From: Desulfobacca sp.
Lineage (GTDB): Bacteria > Desulfobacterota > Desulfobaccia > Desulfobaccales > Desulfobaccaceae
Assembly (NCBI GenBank): GCA_020725545.1
Contig: DYEV01000030.1
Location: 62,001 to 126,000, forward strand
DNA length: 64,000 bases
Direction of reading: 5' to 3'
In this document: piece after piece, positions 1,979 to 62,145 of the stretch
Layout: every line of letters begins with the position of its first letter
Numbering within the stretch: position 1 is the first letter of the stretch
Program-made: the position numbers and the translations under genes
The notes under the pieces: generated by a model
Database searches by the model: none
Told to the model about the DNA's origin: nothing
Seen by the model: only the letters and a program-made list of their open reading frames with translations

Positions 1979-3205
1979 TTAAGAGTAAGCCCGTTCGCCG
2001 TGGGCGCTGATGTCTAAACCGACCTCTTCTTCCATGGGGGTCACCCGCAAGCCGATGCTCAGATCCAGCAGTTTGGCCACGAGAAAGGTGATGCCGAAGC
2101 TGAAGACTATGGTAACCACAATGCCCAGGAGCTGCACCCCGATTTGGGCCGGATTGCCGAAAAACAGCCCGTTGGCGCCGGCTCTATTCACCTGCACGGT
2201 GGCAAACAGACCGGTGGCGACCATGCCCCAGGTGCTGGCCATGCCATGGCAGGCCCAGACATCCAGAGATTCATCAAGCCCCCGCTTATCCCGGAAGCGG
2301 ATGGCATAGTAACTCAAGGGCGCCGCTACCGCACCGATGACCAGAGCCGCCAGCGGCTTCACAAAACCGGCGGCCGGCGTCACCGCCGCCAGACCCACGA
2401 CCATGCCTGTGGAGATGCCCAAAGTGCTGGGCCTGCCGTCCAACCAACTCAGCACCATCCAGACCAGGCCGGCCATAGCCGCCGAACTGTTGGTCGTCAG
2501 CAGGGCATTTACCGCCACGCCGTTGGCCGCCAAGGCACTGCCGGCATTAAAGCCGAACCAGCCGACCCATAAGAGTCCCGCGCCCAAGACCGTGAGCGGG
2601 ATGTTATGCGGTTCCATGGTAAATCTGCCGTAACCCTTGCGCGGGCCGATGACCAAGGCAAAAGCCAGAGCCGAAAACCCGGCGGCAATATGGACGACCG
2701 TGCCGCCGGCGAAATCCAAAAGTCCCATGGTATTGAGCCAACCGCCTTTGCCCCAGACCCAGTGGCACAACGGGTCATAGACCAACGTGGCCCACAGGAT
2801 GCTGAAGAGAAGGAAACTTTTAAATCGCACCCGCTCCACAAAGGCCCCCGTGATCAGGGCCGGGGTAATCACCGCAAACATCATCTGATACGCGGCAAAC
2901 AAACCATGGGGAATGGTCGGGCCGTAGTCTGGGCTGGGTGCAGCCCCGACACCTTCGAAACCCAAATAATTCAGCCCCCCGATGAGACCGCCGATATCCT
3001 CTCCAAAGGCCAAGGAATAGCCATACAACACCCACTGCACCCCGATGAGCGCCATGAAGATAAAGCTGAGGGTCAGGGTCGACAGAATATTTTTCCGGCG
3101 CACCATGCCGCCGTAAAAAAAGGCCAAGGCCGGCGTCATGAGCAATACCAGAGAACAGCAGACCAGAATCCAGGCAGTGTCGCCGGCGTTGATGGCAACC
3201 TCCAT
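1979..3205 (-). CDS. amt: Ammonium transporter
   Basis: Amt/Rh family (AFFYGGMVRRKNILS, GFNAGSALAANG); start chosen at MEVAINAGDTAW. Confidence 0.95.
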   Translation of the reverse strand: MEVAINAGDTAWILVCCSLVLLMTPALAFFYGGMVRRKNILSTLTLSFIFMALIGVQWVLYGYSLAFGEDIGGLIGGLNYLGFEGVGAAPSPDYGPTIPHGLFAAYQMMFAVITPALITGAFVERVRFKSFLLFSILWATLVYDPLCHWVWGKGGWLNTMGLLDFAGGTVVHIAAGFSALAFALVIGPRKGYGRFTMEPHNIPLTVLGAGLLWVGWFGFNAGSALAANGVAVNALLTTNSSAAMAGLVWMVLSWLDGRPSTLGISTGMVVGLAAVTPAAGFVKPLAALVIGAVAAPLSYYAIRFRDKRGLDESLDVWACHGMASTWGMVATGLFATVQVNRAGANGLFFGNPAQIGVQLLGIVVTIVFSFGITFLVAKLLDLSIGLRVTPMEEEVGLDISAHGERAYS

Positions 3206-3356
3206 ACGCTTGCCTCCTTCGGGGGCGCAAATATATTTGCCGTGCAATAAGACCGGAGAGCAAGAGTCTCGAGAAACTTCTCAAATCAAAGTAGGCAGAA
3301 TGATTCGCTCTCGGACTCCTCTTTTCCCACAGTAATAAAGTTGACCGTTATCTTAG

Positions 3357-8362: not shown

Positions 8363-9028
8363 CTACCCCCAGACAATGCCTGATTTCGTATATGGTTTGG
8401 TGTTCAGCCGCCGCAGGTTCTGTTGGGCCGGACCATAAGCAGGGTCGATCTTTACGGCCACCTGGTAGTGGGTCAAAGCCTCCTTGCGCTGGTCCCGATT
8501 TTCATAGAGTCCGCCCAGGATATTAAAGGCCTCCGGCCGGTGTGGGTCCACTAAAATGGCCTTATGGGCATAGACAAAAGCGGCGCTAAATTTCTTCTGG
8601 GCAATACTTTTTTGAGCCAGGCCGAGATACTCATCGTACGAGAAAGCCAGCGGGCCGCCCTCGGGCCGGTCCAGCGCCCGGCTGACGATCTCCCGTACCT
8701 CGGGGGGCTCGAAGGGTTTTTGCAGGAAATCCACCGCTCCCAATTGCATGGCCTCCAGGATCGCCTCCACCGTGCCATAGGCCGTAATAATGATGACCCT
8801 GGTCTGGGGGTAGCGCGCCGTCACCTGCCGCAGGACGGTCAGGCCATCCATGCCGGGCAGCCGTAGATCCAGGAGCATGGCGTCGTAGCGGCTGTCGCTC
8901 AGCTTCTGCAGGGCCTCCTCCCCTTGAAAGACTGCGTCCGCTTCGAGGCCAATGGCCTCTAAAGCGCCCTTCAGGGTGAGGCGGATATTGCGTTCGTCAT
9001 CCACGATCAATACTCGTGGTGTTGCCAT
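8363..9028 (-). CDS. Response regulator with C-terminal TPR region
   Basis: REC domain (VLIVDDERNIR, DAMLLDLRLPGMDG, ITAYG, LQKPF) followed by TPR-like repeats. Confidence 0.9.
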   Translation of the reverse strand: MATPRVLIVDDERNIRLTLKGALEAIGLEADAVFQGEEALQKLSDSRYDAMLLDLRLPGMDGLTVLRQVTARYPQTRVIIITAYGTVEAILEAMQLGAVDFLQKPFEPPEVREIVSRALDRPEGGPLAFSYDEYLGLAQKSIAQKKFSAAFVYAHKAILVDPHRPEAFNILGGLYENRDQRKEALTHYQVAVKIDPAYGPAQQNLRRLNTKPYTKSGIVWG

Positions 9029-10880
9029 CGGTTTCTATCTCCTTGCTCTGGTCAGCCAGGGGCAGGGTGAAGGTAAAGGCGCTGCCCTGGCCAGGTTCCG
9101 ATTCCAACCAAATAACGCCCCGGTGAGCCCGGACGATCTCTTTGCTGATGGCCAGACCCAGGCCGCTGCCAGGAGTCTCCCCCTGATCAAGACGGACAAA
9201 TTTGTCAAAGATGCGCGACTGCATGTCCCAGGGTATACCGGGGCCGTTATCCTGGACGGTCAGATGGACCTTGGGGCCGAGCTGGGCGCCCCGCAGATGA
9301 ATATGACCGCCGGCCGGCGTAGAGCGCACTGCGTTGGCCAGCAGATTGACCAGGACCCAGACGATCTTGTGGGGATCGACCAGGACCTCCGGGAGATTTT
9401 CCGGGACCTCCAGAGATACGGCAATCCCCTTGGCTTCAGCCTGAGTTTTTATTACCATCCAGGCCTGCTGGCCAAGGAAGGCGGGGGCAACTGGCTCCAG
9501 GGCCAACTCCAATCTGCCTGCTTCAATTTTTGACAACTCCAACAGATCATCCACCAGAGCCTTAAGGCGCAGCACTTCTTCGTGGCAGATATCCAGCAAT
9601 TGCCGTTCCTGTTCGCTGAGCTTGGCCGCCGCTGATTCCTTGAGCATACTCACCGACATGCCGATACTGGTCAACGGCGTCCGCAGCTCGTGGGATGCGG
9701 TCATGACAAACTCGCTTTTTAACCGGTCCAACTCTTTCAGCCGGGTGACGTCCCGCAGAACCAGGACGGCGCCGGGGATGACCCCGGCCCGGGAATGTAT
9801 CGGCAGGATGGCTGTCTGGTAGTGCTGCACGACTTCCCCCTGTGACACTGTCAGAATATTTTCATCTGCCTCATAATGCGGTTCCTGACCGGTAGCGATG
9901 GCCCCTTGCAGAGACCGATAGATCGTTTCATCCCGCACCACTTCCAGGATATGTTTGCCCAGGGACGCAGCCGCCTCAACATGGAAGATGGCCGCGGCTT
10001 TGGGATTCATATTGGTAATGATGAGTTTCTCGTCCACCACCACCAACCCGTCATCCACACTCCGAATAATGGCGTCACTCTTGCGTTTTTCCGCCAGGAT
10101 CTGGTCAATGTCCAACTCATGAAAATGCTTTAATTTATTGGCCATGCTATTGAAGGCCGTGGCCAGGAGGGCCAATTCATCCCGGCCTTGCACCGGCACC
10201 TGGACGCCATAATTACCTTGGGCCAGGGAGGCCACAGCCTGGTTAATCTCGGTGACCGGCCGGGAGAGGCGCTGGGCCAGCATGACGCTGAAAGAAATCC
10301 CCCCAAGAATGGTCAGAGTCCCGATGATGGAGATGAACCAGACCGCCTGTTCGGCGATGCGACGGGCCCTCTTGCTGGCGGCAAACATCACTTCGTGATT
10401 GAGGTTGCGCAGCTTCAGACAGGCATCCCGCACGGTCCAGAATCGAGGCAGCACTTGATCGTGGTAACGGCTGGCCAGTCGCGTCCCATCGTCCCGACTG
10501 CCGAGGTGCAGCTGCTGGATTTCCTGGAGATAGAGCGTATAATTTTTCTCGATGGCCGCGACAATCTCCTGCTCCCCGGTGATGGTGACGTTGTCTTTGG
10601 CACGCCCCAGCCACATAAGAAAACTGACTTCGCTCTCCCGCATCTCTTTAAAGCCCAATTCGGGGAAATTCAGCAAAACCAGCAGCAGCCCAGAATCCTG
10701 CCGTTCGATGTCATTGATCATATTCTCGGCCGCCAGGGTGCTCAGGTAATTCTCCTGCAGGATGGCGTCGGAAGCCCGGCCCAGGCGTAACAGTAAAACG
10801 ATGCCCAGGATAAGAATCAGGGCCACAATAAACAGACTGGCGCCGAAGCCCAGGAGGATTTTGGCTCGCAAGGTTTTCAT
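8997..10880 (-). CDS. Membrane sensor histidine kinase (HAMP, PAS, HisKA, HATPase)
   Basis: ASHELRTPLTSIGMS H-box, DNGPGIPWDMQSRIFDKF, GSGLGLAISKEIVRAH; overlaps the response regulator by 32 bp. Confidence 0.95.
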   Translation of the reverse strand: MKTLRAKILLGFGASLFIVALILILGIVLLLRLGRASDAILQENYLSTLAAENMINDIERQDSGLLLVLLNFPELGFKEMRESEVSFLMWLGRAKDNVTITGEQEIVAAIEKNYTLYLQEIQQLHLGSRDDGTRLASRYHDQVLPRFWTVRDACLKLRNLNHEVMFAASKRARRIAEQAVWFISIIGTLTILGGISFSVMLAQRLSRPVTEINQAVASLAQGNYGVQVPVQGRDELALLATAFNSMANKLKHFHELDIDQILAEKRKSDAIIRSVDDGLVVVDEKLIITNMNPKAAAIFHVEAAASLGKHILEVVRDETIYRSLQGAIATGQEPHYEADENILTVSQGEVVQHYQTAILPIHSRAGVIPGAVLVLRDVTRLKELDRLKSEFVMTASHELRTPLTSIGMSVSMLKESAAAKLSEQERQLLDICHEEVLRLKALVDDLLELSKIEAGRLELALEPVAPAFLGQQAWMVIKTQAEAKGIAVSLEVPENLPEVLVDPHKIVWVLVNLLANAVRSTPAGGHIHLRGAQLGPKVHLTVQDNGPGIPWDMQSRIFDKFVRLDQGETPGSGLGLAISKEIVRAHRGVIWLESEPGQGSAFTFTLPLADQSKEIETDGNTTSIDRG

Positions 10881-33425: not shown

Positions 33426-33466
33426 CAGAGCGCTCGGCGACGGCGGCCGCAGCGCTCTGTTTTTTT
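33426..33466 (+). terminator. Intrinsic terminator of the nuo operon
   Basis: CAGAGCGCT-N16-AGCGCTCTG followed by TTTTTTT. Confidence 0.9.
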
Positions 33467-33569
33467 GACATGGCATGGCAAATTGATAAAATAACAGGCA
33501 AACGATGGCGCGATCTGTTTTGCTGCTATAAGAACTGCTGTTCTCTTCATGGCTTAGAGAGGTACGTCC

Positions 33570-36500
33570 ATGGCCTTCACGGATTTTTTTTCCAGAAAGA
33601 AGACCTGTGATTTTGTCGTCAATGCTGACGAACGGATAACCAAAAAATATCAGAAGTATCGTGAGTTTTTAGAATATAACCGGGATACCTTGGAGATGTT
33701 GGCCGAGCTGGAACAGCTCTACTACGGCAGCCGGATCAACCTCTTGGCGGTTCGCAGGCAGGTCGAGGAGTTACTGGCCACGTTGCGTCGCTTGGTACAA
33801 GCACTGGACGAATTGGGAGGCGGCCGCTATGGGCAGCTGGAGCAGGCCTGTCAGCGGGTGGAAGAAGAGTTGGCCCTGGCTTTTGAAGCGGGGCCTACCT
33901 GTCTCATAGGGGATCTGGTCCTGCCCTTGGAGGCCCTACGGCCGGAGACCATGATGGAGGCGGGTGGCAAGGCCACCAACCTGGCCACCATTGCCCGCTT
34001 TTTGAAGCTACCCATACCCCCTGGATTTGCCATTACCTCATATGCGTTTGAACGTTTTTTAGAGGAGAACAAATTAGCAGTTCCCATTGAACTGATCCTG
34101 ACCTCCTTAAAGCCGGATGATCTGGCCGATCTGGAGGTGCAAAGCAGCATCATCCAGGAGAGCATCAGAAAAGCGCCGGTGCCGCCATTCCTGGCGGCCA
34201 AGATTATCCAGGCCTACGAGGAACTGGAGGCCAAGACTTGGAAAAACGTGCGCATTGCCATGCGGAGCAGCGCCGTGGGTGAGGATACGGAAGCATCCTT
34301 TGCCGGCCAACATCTCACCGTCCTGAATGTCACCCGCGACGACCTCTTGGAGGCCTATAAAGCCGTGGTGGCCAGCAAGTATTCGCCCCGGGCCATCCTC
34401 TACCGCCTCAATTTCGGTCTGAACGATCGGGAAACCCCCATGTGCGTGGCCGGCATTACTATGATCGACTCCCGGGCCAGCGGGGTCATGTATACCGTGG
34501 ATCCCACCGATCCTACCTCTGGTCTCCTCAAGATCAGTTCTATCTGGGGCTTGGGAGAACACCTGGTAAGCGGTGAAGCCTCCCCTGACGAGTTTTTTGT
34601 GGACAAATCTACCGGCCGGATCGTGCAACAGACCATTGGCCAAAAAAAGGAAAGGCTGGTTAACCGGCCGCAGGGTGGCATCCAACTTGTGGCCGTGCCG
34701 GAGGCAGAAATTTCCCAACCCTCTCTTACCCCGGCCCAGCTCCAGACCCTGGCCTTCTATGGCCAAAAATTAGAGGGGTATTTTCAAGCCCCGCAAGATG
34801 TGGAATGGGCCATTGACCAGGAAGAGCGGCTTTACATTTTGCAGAGTCGGCCGTTGGGAGTAGTGCACAGTAAAGCCGGTGCCGAGGTTCTGATGGTTGA
34901 TGCCAAGAACCATCCGGTACTGTTATCCCGGGGCAAGATGGCCTCCCCGGGCATTGCCGTGGGCCAGGTGGTGTTAGCCAGCGCTCAACCGGCATCGTTG
35001 CCAGAAAACGCCATCCTGGTGGCCCGGACAGCTTCCCCCGACTATGCGACCCTTATGGCCCAGCTCAAGGGTTTGATCACAGATTTGGGGAGCATCACCA
35101 GTCACTTGGCCTCCGTAGCCCGGGAGTTTGGCGTGCCGGCCATCGTGGACGCAGGGAATGCCACCGAACTTTTGAAACCTGGCCAGGAAGTTACTTTAGT
35201 TGCCAAGGCCACCACTGTCTACCAAGGTATTGTGCCGGAATTAGCCGAGCAGATAAGGCCTGCGAAAAAACATTTGTTTAACAGTCCGGTGCATGAACGC
35301 CTTCGCAAGGTTTTGGACCGGATTTCCCCTCTCAACCTCACGGATCCGCAGGCGGCCGATTTTAACCCGGAAGGTTGCCGGACCGTCCATGATATTATCC
35401 GCTATGCCCACGAAAAGGCCATGCAGGAGATGTTCGGCCTCACCAAGCTCGGCCCTCAGGGGATCAATGTTGTACAAATGAGGAGCAACATTCCTCTGGT
35501 GCTGCATCTCATCGATCTGGGCGGCGGTTTACGAGCCGGCCTGACGACTTGCGATACGGTCACACCGGACGATGTGGAGTCCATCCCCATGAAAGCTCTC
35601 TGGCGGGGTTTTAGTCATCCTGGGATTACCTGGAAGGGAGTGATACCCTTTGATGTTAAAAATTTTATGACTTTAATGGCCCAGAGTGCCATGCAAACCG
35701 AGGATAAACTGCCGGGCGGCGACAGCTTCGCTTTGGTGGCCCGGGACTATCTGAATTTAAGCGCTAAATTCGGCTACCATTTTGCCAATCTGGATACGTT
35801 TGGCAGCGATGACCCGATGCAGAATTACATCAATTTACAATTTGCCGGTGGAGTGGGCAGCTATATGGGCCGTTCCCTGCGCCTCGCTTTTTTGGGGGAG
35901 GTCCTCCATCGGCTGGGGTTTACCCTGAAGATGACCGGCGATCTGCTGGAGGCCTCCATCACTGGGCTAAGCCGAGCGGTGCTGGAAGAGGCACTGGATC
36001 AGGTAGGCCGGTTGCTGGCTTCCAGCCGACTCCTGGACATGGCCATTACCGGCGAAGCTGATATTCCGCCGATGGTTGAGGCCTTTTTTCATGGTGACTA
36101 TGATTTTTTACAGCAGTCAGAAAGCATCCATCTGCCCGGATTTTATACCCATACCGGCAACTGGCGCTTGGCAACGGCACAAGGGCAAACCATCATAGTT
36201 CAGGATGGCTCCAATTATTTGGGGAGGTTTTCGGCACGCTTGGCAGGTATGCTGACCACCATGATCGGGGAAACCTATTTAGAGATTCTGGATAATATCG
36301 GCGCCTATTTTTATTTTCCGTTAGCCATTGCCAAGGAGAGCTATTTGCCGGCCGGGTCAGGCCAGGTGCGGGTCCGACCGGTCTCCGGTCGCATTGATCA
36401 GGCGGCGGGGCTGGCTTTTGGCATTCGCAACGTGGGGAATTATTTCGTCTTTCGGGTGAATACCTTGGAAGAGGATGTGGCCCTCTTTGAATTTGTCGAC

Positions 36501-36731
36501 AATAAAAGATATAAGCGGTCCTCGGCCTCGGCCAGCCTCACCCCGGGGCATTGGTATGAATTGCGCGTCGACTTTGCGGGGCAACAGTGTCTCTGCTGGC
36601 TTGATGGCAAACCGCTGATCGATTACACTGCCCTGCGCTCCCTGGATGGCTATGTGGGGCTGTGGACTAAGGCCGATGCCGTGAGCCATTTCACCGACCT
36701 GAAAATTGCGGGGCAGAGGGAACCGGCATGA
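33570..36731 (+). CDS. PEP synthase/pyruvate-phosphate-dikinase-like protein with novel middle region and C-terminal LamG/concanavalin-like domain
   Basis: ATP-grasp part (GGKATNLATIARF, IAMRSSAVGEDTEASFAGQH, DVEWAIDQEERLYILQSRP), swivelling His domain (GSITSHLASVAREFGVPAIVD); C-terminus LTPGHWYELRVDFAGQQCLCWLDGKPLIDY...GYVGLWTKADAVSHFTDLKI. Confidence 0.85.
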   Translation: MAFTDFFSRKKTCDFVVNADERITKKYQKYREFLEYNRDTLEMLAELEQLYYGSRINLLAVRRQVEELLATLRRLVQALDELGGGRYGQLEQACQRVEEELALAFEAGPTCLIGDLVLPLEALRPETMMEAGGKATNLATIARFLKLPIPPGFAITSYAFERFLEENKLAVPIELILTSLKPDDLADLEVQSSIIQESIRKAPVPPFLAAKIIQAYEELEAKTWKNVRIAMRSSAVGEDTEASFAGQHLTVLNVTRDDLLEAYKAVVASKYSPRAILYRLNFGLNDRETPMCVAGITMIDSRASGVMYTVDPTDPTSGLLKISSIWGLGEHLVSGEASPDEFFVDKSTGRIVQQTIGQKKERLVNRPQGGIQLVAVPEAEISQPSLTPAQLQTLAFYGQKLEGYFQAPQDVEWAIDQEERLYILQSRPLGVVHSKAGAEVLMVDAKNHPVLLSRGKMASPGIAVGQVVLASAQPASLPENAILVARTASPDYATLMAQLKGLITDLGSITSHLASVAREFGVPAIVDAGNATELLKPGQEVTLVAKATTVYQGIVPELAEQIRPAKKHLFNSPVHERLRKVLDRISPLNLTDPQAADFNPEGCRTVHDIIRYAHEKAMQEMFGLTKLGPQGINVVQMRSNIPLVLHLIDLGGGLRAGLTTCDTVTPDDVESIPMKALWRGFSHPGITWKGVIPFDVKNFMTLMAQSAMQTEDKLPGGDSFALVARDYLNLSAKFGYHFANLDTFGSDDPMQNYINLQFAGGVGSYMGRSLRLAFLGEVLHRLGFTLKMTGDLLEASITGLSRAVLEEALDQVGRLLASSRLLDMAITGEADIPPMVEAFFHGDYDFLQQSESIHLPGFYTHTGNWRLATAQGQTIIVQDGSNYLGRFSARLAGMLTTMIGETYLEILDNIGAYFYFPLAIAKESYLPAGSGQVRVRPVSGRIDQAAGLAFGIRNVGNYFVFRVNTLEEDVALFEFVDNKRYKRSSASASLTPGHWYELRVDFAGQQCLCWLDGKPLIDYTALRSLDGYVGLWTKADAVSHFTDLKIAGQREPA

Positions 36732-52201: not shown

Positions 52202-53158
52202 TTAGCGGAAAAAGCCAATAATATAAGTTCCGGCCAGATACAACAAGATGGCCGCCAGGATGATCTTGATGATCTTGGCCGAGACGAATTTCTGTGTCCG
52301 GGCACCCAGATACATACCGGCCATGCCGCCCAGGCCGAAGAGCAGACCCAAAAGCCAATCCGGGGCGATGGCCTGCTGGGGATACCAAGGGGCGATGAGC
52401 ATATAGAAGAGGACGCCGGCGACAGAGGTAATGAAGGTCCCCATGAGGGCGGCGCCGGCCACGGTGTAGACCGGCAGGCCGAAGACCGCCACAAAAAAGG
52501 GCGCCACAATGGCCCCGCCGCCGATGCCATAGGTGCCGCCGACGATCCCGACGATGAAGCTTAAGGCAAAAATGCCCCAGGTGGAAAATTCAAAGGTCTC
52601 GCCATAAAATTCATAGGCAATGCGGGTGGGGGTGAATTTCAAGGTGCGGACCACCGCCTCCGGCGGAAGACCGGACGCCAGCCGGCTCTGGCTGGCCTGT
52701 TTCAAGGCCGCCACCCGTTCGTTGAATTTGGCCTCCAGGGCCTTCATGCCCGGCCGCGGCCGCCAGAGGTCATAGAGGAGCCGGACCCCGATATAGAGCA
52801 GCACAAAGCCAGCAAAGAGTTTAAAGGCTTTGGGATCGGGCAGGTATTTGATGCGCAGGAAGGCCCCGATGAAGACCCCGGGCAGGGTGCCGACGATGAC
52901 CACCCAGGTCAGCGGCCAGGCCATGCGGCCTTCCCGAATATACCGGTAAACGCCGCTGGGAATGGCCACCACATTAAAGACCAGGTTGGTGGGGCTAACC
53001 GCTGGACTGGTAAAGCCTAAGACGCTCACCTGAAATGGCAAAAGCAAAAAGGCACCAGAGACGCCGCCCATGGAGGTGAAAAAAGAAATTACCAGAGCCA
53101 CGAGAAAGGGTACCGCCGGATGAACTACGACACCGCTGACCGGAAAGAGCATGCGCAC
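52202..53158 (-). CDS. TauE/SafE-family (TSUP) transporter
   Basis: SPAVSPTNLVFNVVAIPSGVYRYIREGRM, VGGTYGIGGGAIVAPFFV. Confidence 0.92.
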   Translation of the reverse strand: MRMLFPVSGVVVHPAVPFLVALVISFFTSMGGVSGAFLLLPFQVSVLGFTSPAVSPTNLVFNVVAIPSGVYRYIREGRMAWPLTWVVIVGTLPGVFIGAFLRIKYLPDPKAFKLFAGFVLLYIGVRLLYDLWRPRPGMKALEAKFNERVAALKQASQSRLASGLPPEAVVRTLKFTPTRIAYEFYGETFEFSTWGIFALSFIVGIVGGTYGIGGGAIVAPFFVAVFGLPVYTVAGAALMGTFITSVAGVLFYMLIAPWYPQQAIAPDWLLGLLFGLGGMAGMYLGARTQKFVSAKIIKIILAAILLYLAGTYIIGFFR

Positions 53159-61271: not shown

Positions 61272-62145
61272 GGAATCTGCTCACGAGATTATTGGCCTGG
61301 GCCGAAGGCGCCTGCTTCAGGAGGGGATAGAGTTGGGCGCAGTCCTCGTAGGTCAGCCGACACATGAGGGTGCTGAGACGCAACTCCTCATCCAAATGGG
61401 GGGTCGGCGAACCGGAGGCGGGCACTTCGTCTTTGCCCAGCAATTTAATATAGATCAGGCTGCGGGCCGCGAGAAGCTTCTCGGTCTCCGGGGCAATGGG
61501 CCGCCGGAACAGGTAAGCAAAGGTCAATTCATCGCCCGGACCAAAGACCCGGGGGCGGTGGGCGCGCTGCCGGGCTACGGCGCCCAAAAGAAAATGGGGC
61601 CGCACCTCGCCCCGGCCATGTAATGCCCGTCGCAGTTCGCCGGGCAGAGACAGGTGCATGTGCCCGGTTTCCACATAGACCGACTCAAACTGGCCGGTCA
61701 GGGCAGCCAGGGCCTGCGCCCGCATGGCATCCCGCCAGCGGAAGCGGGCTGCATCACGGCGGGCAAATTCCAGCACCGTCTCCACCACCCGAGGGAACGG
61801 CGCCTGCATGGACACCTCATAGAAACGTAGCAGCGCGGCTGTCGCCTCCCGTTCCATATCATAGACCTGCCGCAGCTCCTCCCTGGACCTGACCTCCTCT
61901 GGAGGAACTTCCTGGGCAAAAAGTTCATGAATGGTCACTAGGCGTTCCAGGTAGGGTTCAATCTGCAGGATAGTCCGCCCCTCGTGCCAGAGCTCCTGCA
62001 GGATGGCCAACTGCTGCCGACTGAACTCCGGGAACTCGGCGTCCAGCTCCCAGAGATAATCCTCTATCGGGGCGGTGCCTTGCAAAACCCGGGGAAGGGT
62101 TGGAGATGGGGGTTCCTCCAAAACAATGGCCTGGTGGTTGCTCAT
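61231..62145 (-). CDS. Hypothetical protein, about 304 aa
   Basis: Long ORF with coherent composition beside the biotin genes; no recognised motif. Confidence 0.65.
   Translation of the reverse strand: MSNHQAIVLEEPPSPTLPRVLQGTAPIEDYLWELDAEFPEFSRQQLAILQELWHEGRTILQIEPYLERLVTIHELFAQEVPPEEVRSREELRQVYDMEREATAALLRFYEVSMQAPFPRVVETVLEFARRDAARFRWRDAMRAQALAALTGQFESVYVETGHMHLSLPGELRRALHGRGEVRPHFLLGAVARQRAHRPRVFGPGDELTFAYLFRRPIAPETEKLLAARSLIYIKLLGKDEVPASGSPTPHLDEELRLSTLMCRLTYEDCAQLYPLLKQAPSAQANNLVSRFLTEKESAGRSENK

Follow-up and report, generated by a model that had tools for sequence, protein, structure and literature searches.

The PEP-synthase-like gene at positions 33570..36731 (+) of the window (the whole stretch of 64,000 nucleotides analysed here, positions 62,001 to 126,000 of contig DYEV01000030.1 from Desulfobacca sp., assembly GCA_020725545.1) encodes a protein in which the kinase half of a PEP synthase is joined to an undescribed C-terminal domain, and this in turn to a LamG/concanavalin-like tail. 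The best explanation for the family to which this protein belongs, and one to which we give an even chance of being right, is that its members are regulatory phosphotransfer proteins assembled from PEP-synthase parts that act as ATP-fed phosphohistidine switches of oxyanion transport.

Gene context and domain architecture

The open reading frame (1053 aa, about 116 kDa) starts with an ATG at 33570 and closes at 36731, the end of its stop codon, so that the coordinates and frame of the first-pass annotation were correct; no signal peptide or membrane segment is apparent in the protein. Direct reading of the sequence between nuoN and the gene revealed a terminator-like hairpin (33426..33466, +), consisting of a perfect 9-bp stem (CAGAGCGCT/AGCGCTCTG) with a 16-nt loop and T7 after it, which a pattern scan missed since the loop exceeds the loop length of the scan. 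A sigma-70-like promoter, TTGACA-16-TAAAAT with a TG (33465..33492, +), is suggested by a consensus match at 11 of 12 positions and lies with the ATG 77 bp downstream. Because this hairpin and promoter-like site intervene, and because, among relatives whose flanks were examined, only the closest showed linkage to nuo, we rejected the idea that the gene is part of the nuo operon. A role in anti-phage defence was also rejected, PADLOC having given no match. Elsewhere in the window, a response regulator with TPR repeats adjoins a HAMP-PAS histidine kinase (8363-10880, −), and a TauE/SafE-type permease (52202-53158, −) lies ~16 kb from the PEP-synthase-like gene and is unlinked to it.

An N-terminal helical domain (residues ~18-110; 33621..33899, +), common to the family and to its kinase-less short forms, precedes an ATP-grasp domain (PPDK_N, residues 130-438; 33957..34883, +; Pfam E 2.8e-88) and a phosphohistidine swivel domain (residues ~450-555; 34917..35234, +) whose Pfam PEP-utilizers core spans residues 478-543 (E 3.1e-21). 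The ATP-grasp half and swivel domain described in the first-pass annotation are therefore both present. Residues K134, R232, E238, E412, Q425, R427 and H512 are identical in 75/75 members drawn from three branches, H512 being the expected phosphohistidine (TSHLASVAREFGVP; codon at 35103..35105, +, conserved in 75/75 relatives). Given this invariance, these proteins should be able to carry out the first half-reaction, in which ATP gives rise to the phosphohistidine.

The barrel that should follow was sought and not found, as the first-pass annotation had held: the TIM barrel PEP-utilizers_C (PF02896) is absent from the window protein even at E ≤ 10 in Pfam, while the true PpsA encoded on contig C11 of the same genome, the positive control, carries it at 1e-64. 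HisKA and HATPase_c likewise gave no match at E ≤ 10, although proteins encoded beside relatives do contain them. The protein scored 78 bits against a cut-off of 843.45 for TIGR01828 (pyruvate phosphate dikinase) and 242.7 bits against a cut-off of 999 for NF041857 (RPH). Among PDB entries, an AlphaFold2 model of residues 1-853 (pLDDT 86.7, pTM 0.69) matched PEP synthase 2ols best, with chains of rifampin phosphotransferase and PPDK ranking next. The best database matches are to PEP synthase (TIGR01418 at 351.1 bits, aligned over residues 116-565 only; PDB 8a8e at 4e-67), as would be anticipated for a divergent or decayed PEP synthase, its annotation right or its activity lost. We nevertheless regard this as very improbable: neither sequence nor fold reveals a PEP-binding barrel, the TIGR01418 score is far below the equivalog cut-off of 739.75 in a genome that encodes a true PpsA elsewhere, and the invariant residues of the first half-reaction argue against decay.

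The tail, a LamG/concanavalin-like domain specific to one clade (residues ~860-1047; 36147..36710, +), is recognized best through its relatives. Alone, the window tail matched 3keto-disac_hyd weakly, at E 3.5e-3 and below the Pfam cut-off, but a profile of 11 tails matched levanase carbohydrate-binding modules in PDB (E 4e-5), and the tails of family members matched Glyco_hydro_59_C (best 4e-7), 3keto-disac_hyd (best 1e-7) and Laminin_G_3 (best 2e-4). These matches support the jelly-roll-like C-terminus proposed by the first-pass annotation as a probable LamG-like domain. Carbohydrate binding is common among LamG-like domains. The 11 orthologous tails have a mean column identity of 72%. Within the order, the tail occurs in 11/29 genomes, one copy being split by a stop; LamG-fused copies are also known from a number of other families in the phylum. 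An assembly artefact can be discounted, because many genomes have the full-length fusion, and since the 15 fused proteins form one clade (SH-aLRT 100%), the simplest reading of the tree is that the fusion arose once. The LamG-fused ortholog at locus L177 (6178-8942, G028:C30) is spread over more than one frame and contains an in-frame stop, reflecting either sequencing error or decay.

The new C-terminal domain and its family

The undescribed C-terminal domain (residues ~564-853, ~280 aa; 35259..36128, +) occupies the place of the PEP-binding barrel. Pfam and NCBIfam yielded nothing convincing for this region in the window protein or in 72 relatives scanned singly, and a 72-sequence profile found nothing credible in PDB. 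Its AlphaFold2 model is good (pLDDT 86.5, pTM 0.76) and predicts an alpha+beta domain with no fold match in PDB or BFVD (viral) at E ≤ 0.001 and no match to a barrel; weak matches to arginine kinase and UCH-L5 were judged to be chance. The first-pass annotation had called the region replacing the barrel novel, which agrees with the lack of matches in Pfam, NCBIfam and PDB, but rather than being a one-off, the region defines a large family. Residues C603, H607, D608, R611, H614, F622, G680, Y753, G760, G761, R771 and D823 are identical in 72/72 C-terminal domains, and in the alignment of these domains the first five form an invariant motif, C603-x3-H607-D608-x2-R611-x2-H614 (35376..35411, +).

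Family members are typically ~850 aa long, with the order N-helix, ATP-grasp, swivel, new C-terminal domain. The window's genome encodes eight full-length members, the window protein included, and a further member persists as a broken remnant in pieces (L011, about 2545-3346, −; G000:C24). The C-terminal domain of one paralog (L002) is 96% identical to that on an uncultured Desulfobacca contig, which assigns the window to a Desulfobacca-like bacterium. Across the phylum the domain was found in 110/296 sampled genomes, and it also occurs on named contigs of Nitrospirota and Bacteroidota/Ignavibacteria. More than a third of sampled phylum genomes thus contain the family, some with eight or more copies, and its members are likely to bear a PEP-synthase-derived name for an activity that is almost certainly absent, so that automatic annotation misreads the central carbon metabolism of these bacteria. 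The open papers searched included none on the LamG fusion, whose prior characterization would have counted against the first-pass annotation, nor on the acceptor domain, the family or its signalling and transport setting. The acceptor domain, the family and this setting appear undescribed; the kinase half and a published cluster phenotype, discussed below, are known.

Neighbouring genes were surveyed within 5 kb of 79 family loci. A histidine kinase was found at 52/79 and a single-receiver response regulator at 45/79, TauE/TSUP transporters at 16/79, SLC13 transporters at 13/79, CBS proteins at 20/79, UspA at 11/79 and a second family member at 15/79; at least one of the listed neighbour types was found at 64/79. 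At the true PpsA loci of ten genomes of the phylum, which served as the comparison, a histidine kinase occurred at one and none of the other types at any, a contrast somewhat favoured by the use of neighbour profiles trained on family neighbours, although the families concerned (TauE, Na_sulph_symp, Usp, CBS and receiver domains) are general ones. CBS and UspA proteins are known to bind adenine nucleotides, and their presence therefore suggests sensing of energy charge. A family protein and a DSP phosphatase shared a locus in 20/20 sampled cases, nearly always as adjacent genes, and such a pair is also found on contig C19 of the window's genome. At L017 (6075-7169, −) a dual-specificity-type phosphatase is paired with an 825-aa family member, a pair that recurs across the phylum.

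The LamG branch has fewer of the surveyed neighbour types than other family loci. Six of its loci carry chromate/sulfate-transporter genes, with ChrA (CHR chromate transporter family) adjoining at L171, L177, L233 and L234 and ChrB at L177, L233, L235 and L252. Free-standing LamG-like proteins with signal-peptide-like starts are encoded at L171 (3228-3923), L245 (6601-7212) and L252 (5277-6095), where their genes adjoin ChrA, ChrB or DUF1259 genes. No signalling gene or transporter directly adjoins the window gene, which stands alone behind its promoter-like site, and a search of its genome found no ChrA, for which reason ChrA was rejected as a partner of the window protein in its own organism. 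Control of an anion transporter by the window protein would accordingly be an extrapolation from its relatives.

A proposed role in phosphotransfer and anion transport

The published Desulfovibrio nitrate cluster may offer a genetic view of the family. At L203 the gene order is TauE, an unknown gene, PtxB/Phosphonate-bd, histidine kinase, response regulator, family protein and DSP phosphatase, the same as that of DVU0251-DVU0245 in Desulfovibrio (TauE-unknown-PtxB-HK-RR-X-DSP; PMC4001038, Table 3). Insertion mutants in DVU0246 (PPDK-like), DVU0247 (response regulator), DVU0250 and DVU0251 (TauE) grew as well in 100 mM nitrate as in its absence, but the mutant in DVU0245 (phosphatase) was inhibited by 100 mM nitrate; in strain G20 the phosphatase mutant was nitrate-fit too, and DVU0250 data disagree between assays (PMC4001038). 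A leaky thiosulfate transporter was suggested by the authors (PMC4001038). Since the DVU0245 mutant, unlike the DVU0246 mutant, is nitrate-inhibited, the effect of DVU0246 is probably not simply polarity onto DVU0245. We infer from synteny and annotation only that DVU0246 is a family member; if so, the genetics of others would place the protein in the same pathway, and acting in the same direction, as its response regulator and TauE. This gene order (TauE, histidine kinase, response regulator, DSP phosphatase) is found at L203 and other loci and not at the window gene.

Relatives in which the kinase half is lost or damaged point to how the C-terminal domain may work. Four short relatives of ~380-410 aa (L009 3074-4246, −, G000:C32; L285; L287; L288) keep the N-terminal helices and the new C-terminal domain without ATP-grasp and swivel, and in one further relative the ATP-grasp domain is truncated; the kinase-less forms have at least two origins (two changes on the tree, and no bootstrap tree with one). 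R611 has been lost in 5/5 of these kinase-less or kinase-damaged relatives, H607 in 4/5, and C603 and H614 in 3/5 each, whereas G680, G735, H737, N752, GG760-761, R771, D791 and D823 are kept. In 4/5 the gene adjoins TauE and a ~230-aa membrane protein. Because motif residues were lost with the kinase half and the remaining domain was kept, the simplest reading of this correlation assigns the HDxxRxxH site to the phosphohistidine and the remainder of the domain to a transporter-linked, kinase-independent function. The ~230-aa protein (L089 8721-9404, −, and relatives) matches nothing in Pfam and appears to have membrane helices at either end. Its gene regularly adjoins TauE and PEP-synthase-like family genes, and the protein is probably the counterpart of DVU0250.

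Alternatively, family proteins may be no more than auxiliary phosphoryl donors to neighbouring response regulators, passing phosphate from the swivel histidine to a receiver aspartate, with the C-terminal domain as the docking site. The order histidine kinase, response regulator, family gene is common, and single-receiver regulators without output domains need partners. We consider this unlikely, however, as many loci, the window included, have no adjoining regulator and the conserved core of the C-terminal domain outlives the kinase half.

A less remote alternative, possible though in our view doubtful, is a small-molecule kinase in the mode of RPH or hydroxyphenylethanone kinase, in which the C-terminal domain binds a metabolite that receives phosphate from H512 and the LamG domain aids binding of a glycan-like substrate or scaffold. 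The invariant polar motif could be an active site, the frequent binding of carbohydrates by LamG-like domains would fit, and the kinase half is as in RPH (PDB 5hv1, 5fbs) and HpeI (9goj). RPH-like dikinases, moreover, are a large group with unexplored substrates (PMC4844700). However, no metabolic operon recurs around the family, where signalling and transport genes do; kinase-less forms that persist beside TauE are hard to explain as small-molecule kinases; and the nitrate-resistance genetics indicate transport. Because genes for histidine kinases, response regulators, phosphatases and anion transporters surround the relatives, a regulatory phosphotransfer role is better supported than an unusual metabolic or carbohydrate substrate. 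The unusual phosphotransfer substrate suggested in the first-pass annotation therefore survives in part: a non-pyruvate acceptor is very likely, but the neighbours speak against a metabolic or carbohydrate one.

Under the preferred regulatory reading, and by analogy with the parent families, ATP would be split in the ATP-grasp domain and H512 of the swivel phosphorylated, with release of AMP and Pi. The swivel would next pass this phosphate on to the C-terminal domain, either to H607-D608-x-x-R611-x-x-H614 or beyond that site. In concert with partner histidine kinase and response regulator pairs, the state of the C-terminal domain would switch an oxyanion transporter of the TauE/TSUP, SLC13 or CHR type. 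In one branch the DSP phosphatase would act as the antagonist of the family protein. Judging from the neighbours and the genetics of the syntenic relative, transporter switching may follow both energy charge and an outside signal. The LamG domain of the window protein probably docks a partner. Counting against this explanation, eight paralogs in a single genome would be an uncommon number for a regulator, though not unheard of. More speculatively, and with considerable doubt, the family may constitute a separate bacterial phosphorelay, in which a PEP-synthase-type engine reads energy charge through AMP release and feeds single-receiver regulators or a transporter-bound domain to gate transport of sulfate-like oxyanions. 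In sulfate reducers and related bacteria, such an engine would work beside classical histidine kinases, with a DSP-type phosphatase acting against it.

Should the regulatory reading be true, cellular energy charge would be tied to the transport of sulfate-type ions, a key step of sulfate reduction, and the unexplained published genetics of the nitrate cluster would gain a concrete account. The loss of the motif in kinase-less forms also opens the idea of phosphotransfer to a direct test.

Comparison with known systems

The window protein resembles PEP synthase (PpsA, TIGR01418) in the order of its ATP-grasp and swivel domains and in their conserved catalytic residues, but differs in lacking the PEP/pyruvate barrel and in its extra N-terminal helices, new C-terminal domain and LamG tail. 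With RPH (NF041857) it shares a dikinase-type kinase half joined to an acceptor domain for something other than pyruvate, which in RPH has a fold without known relatives (PMC4844700). The order differs: ATP-grasp, acceptor (RIF-binding) and swivel in RPH (PMC4844700), and ATP-grasp, swivel and putative acceptor in the window protein. The likeness to levanase carbohydrate-binding modules and LamG-like (ConA) domains comes from a profile match to the final ~100 residues of the tail; those domains are mostly extracytoplasmic carbohydrate binders, whereas the tail belongs to a protein without an apparent signal peptide. The closest parallel with published genetics is DVU0246/Dde_0604 (PMC4001038), which combines PPDK_N with a mobile domain and whose gene order is reproduced by family members. 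DVU0246 is annotated at 744 aa, shorter than the family norm, and is expected to have no LamG domain; by synteny it would fall in the phosphatase-linked branch, whereas the window protein belongs to a different clade.
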